From contig JANBPT010000153.1 in NCBI GenBank assembly GCA_027575765.1, forward strand, positions 1-64,000: DNA of 64,000 nt. The letters run 5' to 3'. The stretch's first letter is position 1. Each line of letters opens with the position of its first letter. Under the pieces are notes generated by a model. That model made no database searches and had not been told where the DNA came from. It was given only the letters and a program-made list of their open reading frames with translations. The translations under genes and the position numbers were made by a program. Of the stretch, positions 29,693-59,959 are shown one piece after another. The stretch is from Tieghemiomyces parasiticus (lineage: Eukaryota; Kickxellomycota; Dimargaritomycetes; Dimargaritales; Dimargaritaceae).

Positions 29693-29700
29693 AAAAAAAA
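29693..29700 (-). terminator. Pol III T-run terminator of the 5S gene
   Basis: Eight A residues on the plus strand, that is an uninterrupted T run on the coding strand, start exactly after the 3' end of the 5S rRNA gene, as expected for RNA polymerase III termination. Confidence 0.85.
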
Positions 29701-29819
29701 AGTTGCGGCACCGACTATTCCCAAGTGGTCACCCACCTTAGTACTAAATCGGCTGAATGGTCCTTAACTTCGCAGATCTAACGGGATACGGTGCACAACA
29801 CCATCAGATGGCCGCAACT
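29701..29819 (-). rRNA. 5S ribosomal RNA
   Basis: 119-nt gene on the minus strand. Helix I closes perfectly: 5' AGTTGCGG pairs with 3' CCGCAACT. The internal landmarks of eukaryotic 5S are present: CACCGTATCCCGTTAGATCT, GCGAAGTTAAG, then TTAGTACTAAGGTGGGTGACC and GGGAATAGTCGGTG. The GATCTGCGAAGTTAAG region overlaps the A box/C box control region used by TFIIIA. It is followed by a T run. It is a lone copy among protein genes, so 5S genes are dispersed and not confined to the rDNA repeat here. Confidence 0.96.
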
Positions 29820-41310: not shown

Positions 41311-42554
41311 ATGGTAAGCAGCCGTGGACGAAACTACAGCGCAATTCGGCAGGTGTGCGTTCCACCCGGCCTCCTGTAGGCACCATACGTCGAGAAACGC
41401 CCCACTCACTCTACCCTTCACCTTCCACCGTTTCCCCTCCGCCACCCGCATTATGTAGGCCACGGTCACCTGTAACGTCGACCCAGCGCTCTCCAAGGCG
41501 CTCGAAGGCTTCCGCTTCGCCAAGCAGCAGGGTTCGCTCTCGGCCTTCTTTGGTACGTACGCGAGTAATCGACCCAAGCCCACTCAGGATAATCTGGCTC
41601 AGCTACAGCCGCTCGGGTATACGCTCGACCTGTCGCGTCTACTCAGGTACGTGGCTGGCATGACGGGCGTTACTAACCTGCGAGACACGCCGACCGCAAC
41701 CCGCCCATATTTTGGGACCCCTTAGCCAAGATCGACCGCAAGCAGCTGCTCGTCGTGGAAGACGAGGTCCATAAAGATACTACCCTGGAGGACCTCACCG
41801 AGGAACTGCCCGACGACGCTCCAAGATAAGTATACTCCTCATTACTAAATACAGCAGGCCCCATGCTGCGCATAGACTGTCGGCGGGGTAGGTGTACACA
41901 CATCTTCTCTGCTCGGAAACCGTACCCCCTATCTAATGGCTACCGAAGCTGAGAAATACCCTCGAACTCTTCCCTGCGTCCATTTCCTACTTAATTCTGG
42001 CCTACACATATGTCGTCCTCAGCTACAAGGTAAATTAAGCGCGGCGGCCTATATTTATTTTAACGAGAGCAACACGCCGATGCTCAGAAAGAGGCGAGCT
42101 TCCGACGTTCAGGGCAATACGCTAACCCCCAATCACACGTATTGGTGCCCTCATTTACCATAGTTCGAACATAACGGGCGGGTATCTTTCCCGCTGGTAT
42201 TTGTCTACTACTGCCCAATGTCCTGTAAGTACCCTGGGCGACCGGTATGGGCATGGAAAGTACACCGATAGAGCCACTGCCACAATTAGCCTACCCGAGG
42301 GACGTGATATGCGGTCTAGCGGGGTATTAACCGTTTGAACTTGGGATCCTGTCCCTCCCACCTTATCCACACCCGTCCTCCCATACAAACAACAACAACA
42401 ATAACAAGCCTCCCCGGAGGCTCGCATGTTGTACGCCAGTGCCCAGCCCGTGTTCCAGAAAACTATTGGCCTCGGAAAAGCCTATGAACTTCAGGACAAG
42501 GAGCAGCTCACCGAAGACTGGATCAACTCCCGTCTGGCTAGCTTCGCCAGTTAA
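41311..42554 (+). CDS. Glia maturation factor (GMF/Aim7), ADF-H family, with one AT-AC intron
   Basis: Binds Arp2/3 and promotes debranching of actin networks. Six coding exons: 41311-41313 (the ATG alone), 41459-41552, 41726-41825, 42008-42029, 42164-42224 and 42409-42554, giving 141 residues, the normal GMF length. Sequence runs VDPALSKALEGFRFAKQ, AKIDRKQLLVVEDEV, LEDLTEELPDDAPR, YVVLSYK, FEHNGRVSFPLVFVYYCP, SSPEARMLYASAQPVF and LTEDWINSRLASFAS. Four introns are GT-AG with matching phases. Between exons 3 and 4 no GT or AG fits: the exon ends CCAAG before ATAAGTAT, and the next begins after CCTACAC. Only an AT-AC intron (41826-42007) restores the family motif APRYVVLSYK. Confidence 0.9.
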
Positions 42555-59888: not shown

Positions 59889-59959
59889 TGCCATTGGCTG
59901 GAATCGAACCAGCGTCAGCGCGGCCACAACGCGACGTACTGCCACTATACTACAATGGC
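59889..59959 (-). tRNA. tRNA-His (anticodon GTG)
   Basis: 71-nt cloverleaf on the minus strand. The acceptor GCCATTG pairs fully with CAATGGC, discriminator A. D arm GTAT/GTAC, anticodon loop TTGTGGC with GTG, and T arm CTGGTTCGATTCCAG. The anticodon stem has a mismatch at its outermost pair. No intron. A short T-rich stretch follows. As in other tRNA-His, the -1 G is not encoded. Confidence 0.95.

Follow-up and report, generated by a model that had tools for sequence, protein, structure and literature searches.

The gene located at positions 41,311 to 42,554 of the window (the whole stretch of 64,000 nucleotides of the Tieghemiomyces parasiticus genome that was analyzed) encodes glia maturation factor (GMF), and we consider it likely that its third intron is a genuine AT-AC intron which is removed by the major (U2) spliceosome and whose most likely ancestor was a U12-type AT-AC intron. 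The borders of this intron, their conservation in two copies of the locus, the coding constraint on the exons downstream of it and its U2-like signals were obtained by computation. According to its taxonomy record, the fungus belongs to the Dimargaritaceae (Dimargaritales, Kickxellomycotina).

Gene layout and borders of intron 3

The predicted product of the gene, a member of the ADF-H family, matched the GMF profile at 167.5 bits (E 7.1e-54, one target) over profile positions 2-138 of 139, i.e. with near-complete coverage. The gene is located on the + strand and contains six exons and five introns. Exon 1, the ATG (41311..41313), and intron 1 (GTAAGC...TAG, 41314..41458) were placed by the GMF exon model, and exon 2 (41459..41552) by this model together with splice-aware alignment. 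Intron 2 (GTACGT...TAG, 41553..41725) was delimited by splice-aware alignment, and a branch-motif scan located a CTAAC branch motif 49 nt before its end. Border scan and splice-aware alignment both delimited exon 3 (41726..41825), which ends with CCAAG in codon phase 2, and exon 4 (42008..42029), which finishes the R codon and encodes YVVLSYK; the 182 nt AT-AC intron 3 (41826..42007) is located between them. Splice-aware alignment also gave intron 4 (GTAAAT...TAG, 42030..42163) and exon 5 (42164..42224) and, with the border scan, intron 5 (GTAAGT...AAG, 42225..42408). Exon 6, including the stop codon (42409..42554), is that of the GMF model scored in the border scan. Elsewhere in the window a 5S rRNA gene (29700-29819, - strand) and a tRNA gene (59889-59959, - strand) were the only Rfam matches at curated cut-offs.

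As had been stated in the original prediction, CCAAG at the end of exon 3 (position 41825) runs straight into ATAAGTATAC, giving an immediate in-frame TAA. At the other end, GGCCTACAC, ending at position 42007, directly precedes exon 4 and the 52 nt upstream contain no AG; an AG-free stretch of about 50 nt had been claimed. The further claim, that cutting at AT and AC restores the phase and the motif APRYVVLSYK, was borne out by a border scan in which starts 41756-41989 were combined with ends 41860-42026, at least 30 nt apart and with any dinucleotides, while the other exons were kept fixed. The 26,358 pairs yielded 1,353 distinct stop-free in-frame proteins, and the best of these was the 167.5-bit product of 41826-42007 (ATAAGTATAC...GGCCTACAC). 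The runner-up, in which both ends are cut three bases upstream, scored 163.6 bits; the best GC-AG solution scored 141.9 bits (26 below AT-AC) and the single GT-AG solution, 41767-41948, scored 127.0 bits (40 below). The profile was based on 114 of 123 proteins, the Tieghemiomyces and Dispira models and lengths outside 130-150 residues being left out, and PR[YF] is directly joined to a VVLSY-type motif in all 114 homologs used. Two database entries, P0003 (Racocetra) and P0043 (Rhizophagus clarus), combine GMF with a histone H4 and are probably fused gene models of neighbours. Splice-aware alignment placed intron 3 at the same borders with all three templates (Coemansia, Linnemannia and Lobosporangium). 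For this analysis the aligner was restricted to GT-AG, GC-AG and AT-AC; the base cost of AT-AC was set above that of GT-AG, and the bonus for ATAAGT and ATATCC donors was small and equal to the GTNNGT bonus. The AT-AC borders of intron 3 at 41826 and 42007 are hence confirmed by computation.

A second GMF copy, 94% identical to that of the window (contig C425), is present on contig C819. Two other families likewise gave matches that mostly form nearly equal pairs, each on different contigs of the assembly (46.5 Mb), and we read all these paired loci as alleles or homoeologs. The borders of intron 3 are identical in both GMF copies. The copies differ at seven sites within the intron, all located between 41853 and 41952, which leaves its first 27 and last 55 bases unchanged. 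Since the same borders are found in the second copy, an assembly error at these positions is unlikely. Nine codons differ between the copies, seven synonymously and two not (L28P and T57I, both encoded upstream of intron 3). All six differences in exons 4-6 are synonymous, with 0.248 expected per random change; by our own arithmetic the chance of this result is 0.248^6, or ~0.0002. Selection at the protein level seems to act on the exons behind the TAA, and this would require in-frame removal of the intron; the fact that their differences are all synonymous argues that exons 4-6 are probably translated.

Translation of these exons bears on whether the gene might be a pseudogene, in which intron 3 could not be removed and the protein would stop after APR. 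The public 126-residue model IWQ60_003546 (P0004) indeed terminates at DDAPR, at the intron-3 TAA, and AT-AC ends are rare, accounting for 0.019% of annotated fungal splice pairs in the data of PMC7072748. We regard this reading as very improbable: the remaining exons are intact in both copies, the six differences downstream of the stop are those just described, and a broken intron would need an A at +1 plus a C at its last base, both by chance. In yeast these two bases are reported to rescue each other. The public model should be re-annotated; part of intron 2 is also included in it as coding sequence. Use of other borders for intron 3 appears equally improbable. Sliding the cut by 0-3 bases (AT-AC, TA-CA, AA-AT and AG-TA) leaves the protein unchanged, so that these four cuts are indistinguishable by sequence alone. 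To our knowledge AT-AC is the only known pair of spliceosomal ends among them, AG-TA, AA-AT and TA-CA not being known spliceosomal classes, and AT-AC was chosen for this reason. The GC-AG and GT-AG alternatives, besides losing 26 and 40 bits, respectively, disrupt the conserved PRYVVLSYK motif.

Splicing signals of intron 3

The signals of intron 3 were compared with those of a set of 43 ordinary introns, all unique, of which Ras-type loci (L059-L092) contributed 39 and GMF four; this set remained after 70 rows plus the four GMF introns had been merged. Introns with eight odd donor strings, which came from L075/L091 or from the ends of alignments of poor quality, were dropped by hand. Ras template L061, a wrong-strand reading, was kept; it was the best template for locus L061 only and yielded no intron. 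Most of the ordinary donors are GTAAGT-like, and 18 of the 43 are exactly GTAAGT. In agreement with the original prediction of a U2-type donor unlike that of U12 introns, the donor of intron 3 (ATAAGTATAC, 41826..41835) is U2-type outside position +1, with G at +5. Disregarding +1, it outscores all 43 ordinary introns. Its agreement with the U1-complementary 11-mer extends to 9 of 11 positions, a value equalled or exceeded by eight ordinary introns, and that with the U12 donor to 4 of 8. The predicted U1 duplex (-5.8 kcal/mol) is weaker than that of 42 of the 43 ordinary introns because the mismatch at +1 breaks the helix.

To position the branch site we used the motif CTRAY, which occurs within 120 nt of the intron end in 34 of the 43 ordinary introns. 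The 50 motifs found are concentrated 30-89 nt from the end (46 motifs), with none at 10-29 nt, one at 0-9 nt and three at 90-119 nt. Intron 3 contains a CTAAT (41933..41937), kept in both copies, whose branch A would be located 71 nt before the intron end, within the U2 branch range of this genome. Intron 3 thereby appears to have a U2-type branch site at the position that is usual here. Its pyrimidine tract is also normal for this genome, with a pyrimidine fraction of 0.72 compared with a mean of 0.71 in ordinary introns. Two AGs are present between CTAAT and the AC end. Among the 32 ordinary introns with CTAAY in range, 26 have no AG after this motif, five a single AG and one a pair of them. 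The AG-free stretch before the 3' end of the 43 ordinary introns is 33-136 nt long, with a median of 75; these distances seem long by fungal standards.

A second branch candidate, CTTAAT (41990..41995), would place the branch A 13 nt before the intron end, as is U12-like. The weak predicted U1 duplex, the two AGs and this CTTAAT speak against a U2-type intron, but on balance the signals point to one, which may retain a vestige of a U12-type branch site. Taken together with its borders, intron 3 is very probably a real AT-AC intron of U2 type that is spliced.

Search for a minor spliceosome and U12-type introns in this genome

The genome contains two matches above the U6atac cut-off of 33 bits, one of 42.5 and the other of 37.7 bits: L011 1501-1635 (C1314:9357-9491, - strand) and L012 1501-1615 (C1306:8509-8623, + strand). 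Eight of 14 control genomes gave a match at E 1, none of them above the cut-off. The first 64 nt of the two copies are identical, their flanks differ, and T-runs of 6 or 8 are present near the end. Ordinary U6 is distinguished from them as a separate match of 83.4 bits. The donor-pairing stretch of this U6atac is AGAGGAGAG, compared with AAAGGAGAG in the Rfam consensus, and would favour donors with TCCTC. This fungus may therefore have a minor spliceosome; genome searches for U11, U12 and U4atac RNAs (39-48 candidates scored each) gave no match. A genome search for PDCD7 also gave no match, and its control was likewise positive nowhere. An 18-base U12 snRNA pattern matched 44 times with up to 3 mismatches, against 56 times in the control, and none of the 20 loci scanned with Rfam, out of 30 fetched, was U12.

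The search for U12-type introns themselves used two genome patterns with little coverage, which gave two matches each, none convincing, against two and six in the reversed-pattern controls. A strict scan of 347,705 bases gave one match, L093, and none in the reversed control. L093 needs no intron: it is located close to the end of an open frame of 321 codons, whose FAD-oxidoreductase match extends to the last position of the profile as it stands. L016 was rejected since no joined frame exceeds 19 codons after the junction, and L094 since it starts with CT and not with AT or GT. The aligner proposed an AT-AC intron at the same place of contig C944 in L064 and L085; as the alignment of the other copy, L065, passes through GT-AG introns, this proposal was discarded. 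On the reverse strand, L015 (C580:15583-15632, 50 nt) is a ATATCCTT...CCTTAAT...TAC stretch. Its joined frame is open for 159 codons (123 before and 36 after), compared with an unspliced frame that closes after 4; the product matched no Pfam family at E 0.01 and looks low in complexity. It is possible that L015 is a short U12-type intron, or it may be due to chance.

The two U6atac copies are one of the observations that would be expected if the minor spliceosome still removed intron 3 through a degenerate donor and the CTTAAT 13 nt before AC, a reading that we consider unlikely. TCCTC at +11 to +15 (41836..41840) can pair in a shifted register with the genome's own U6atac (-10.8 kcal/mol), which may be chance, and an ortholog in Dispira parvispora (see below) is compatible with a U12 donor. 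TCCTC occurs within the first 20 nt of none of the 43 ordinary introns, but equally strong U6atac pairing is found there in three of them. The donor itself, moreover, matches ATATCCTT at 4 of 8 positions only (the same count holds for the U12 donor criterion RTATCCTT), with AGT at +4 to +6, and the first ten intron bases form no stable pairing with U6atac (+0.9). The branch candidate CTACTTAAT, scored against the U12 branch consensus TTCCTTAAC via an approximate matrix, is weak (shuffle P 0.035), and two of the 43 ordinary introns score equally high. The genome searches for U11, U12 and U4atac, without a match among the candidates scored, also speak against this reading, and we prefer removal of intron 3 by the major spliceosome.

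Descent of intron 3 and relation to known systems

Evidence on the origin of intron 3 comes from Dispira parvispora, which belongs to the same family as T. parasiticus. Its GMF model P0001 (IWQ62_002591) reads DDAPRY-PWLVTPLG-YYKF, and no insertion is present at this place in any of the 114 homologs used. The GMF profile search matched 638 proteins, of which 120 were considered, and there may be more Dimargaritales models among the others. A protein search with P0001 found P0001 itself and a Coemansia protein with PRYVVVSY and no insertion. The residues PWLVTPLG appear to have been read from an unrecognised intron. If the Dispira exon likewise ends in AG|, R-Y-P-W forces the intron bases A-TAY-CCN-TGG. 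Compared with ATATCCTT, six of the forced letters agree and two are compatible, whereas each of the positions +4 to +6 excludes ATAAGT; by our own arithmetic, the combination of a P with a next codon that begins with T has a probability of ~0.014. The Y-Y-K after the insertion is compatible with use of an AG within exon 4 (CTCAG|CTACAAG in Tieghemiomyces), the kind of acceptor to be expected from gene prediction that cannot handle AC ends. On this evidence, one automatic and partial gene model available as protein only, the Dispira ortholog looks like a U12-type intron at the same place.

The fit of A-TAY-CCN-T to the U12 donor ATATCCTT suggests that a U12 AT-AC intron became a U2 AT-AC intron directly. 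The U6atac gene is in favour of a U12 origin; the genome searches without a match for U11, U12, U4atac and PDCD7, and the lack of a convincing U12-type intron among the pattern matches, count against it. Whether this happened without a GT-AG intermediate, such that both states exist in one fungal family, we judge to be evenly balanced. Compared with the Dispira reading, Tieghemiomyces has all three changes (+4A, +5G and +6T). Removal of AGTATAC from ATA-AGTATAC-TCCTC gives ATATCCTC, which is complementary to the genome's own U6atac, and one might speculate that a single 7-base insertion swapped the spliceosome and left the protein unchanged.

We infer splicing itself, the spliceosome involved and the U12 origin, and propose the following mechanism. 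The ancestor would have been a U12-type AT-AC intron whose donor came to read AGT at +4 to +6. In the present intron AG|ATAAGTAT would be recognised by U1 and then by U6, and the CTAAT 71 nt before the end would be used by the U2 snRNP. The first and last intron bases touch in the second step of splicing, a contact reportedly addressed by Parker and Siliciano in 1993, and A with C can replace G with G. The first A and last C of intron 3 would substitute for the G-G contact in this way and would let the second step take AC. The A at +1 would make AG ends unusable and AC the preferred end, so that the two AGs downstream of the branch site would be bypassed.

Intron 3 resembles intron 21 of the animal sodium channel gene SCN4A, which also combines AT-AC ends with a U2-type donor and G at +5. 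Such introns are removed by the major spliceosome in animals (PMC2831892). In contrast to them, intron 3 is located in a fungal GMF gene, its splicing is predicted, and an ortholog from the same family looks U12-type. With U12-type AT-AC introns it has in common the AT-AC ends and phase 2 and, should the weak CTTAAT candidate at 13 nt be a branch site, this site as well, but it has AGT where U12-type donors have TCC at +4 to +6. The original prediction had called U2-type AT-AC introns scarcely described in fungi, which is fair but not absolute. In budding yeast, which lacks a minor spliceosome, AT-AC is described as the most efficient pair after GT-AG, and the U2 spliceosome of this fungus uses it in the SUT635 protointron and an alternative RPL30 junction (PMC6726248). 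According to the same source, AT-AC is not the normal choice of any standard yeast intron; whereas the yeast events are occasional, GMF intron 3 appears constitutive and interrupts a conserved protein. "Other AT-AC introns" were counted from ESTs of both Rhizopus oryzae (3 introns) and Phycomyces (31-32 introns; PMC2846911, Table 2), and parts 1-3 of 4 of that source give these non-U12 cases as counts, without sequences, orthologs or origin. Our literature search returned no paper on the T. parasiticus genome, on the minor spliceosome of Dimargaris cristalligena or on AT-AC introns in Mucoromycota.

It is not yet settled how AT-AC introns change over from the minor spliceosome to the major one, and GMF intron 3 may bear on this. 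As given in PMC2831892, Lin et al. 2010 listed 87 conversions, all with GT-AG as the U2-type state, and proposed a rare direct AT-AC route to explain the sodium channel introns, in which C changes to G at +5, followed by A at +4 or T at +6. Intron 3 would be a further U2-type AT-AC intron, a class that few fungal examples represent, and it offers a hint, open to testing, that the spliceosome was changed. If Dispira DNA shows ATATCCTT, two related fungi would provide one state each, in introns small enough for yeast reporters. The GMF gene also shows how annotation misses AT-AC introns, the public model stopping at the TAA and that of Dispira appearing to keep intron residues. Minor introns are present in some early fungi, and convincing support for them is lacking in Ascomycota and Basidiomycota, according to a 2023 survey whose main text contains the terms Kickxello- and Dimargari- 0 times each (PMC10639083). 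U6atac in the Dimargaritales would extend this patchy fungal map of minor splicing by one lineage.
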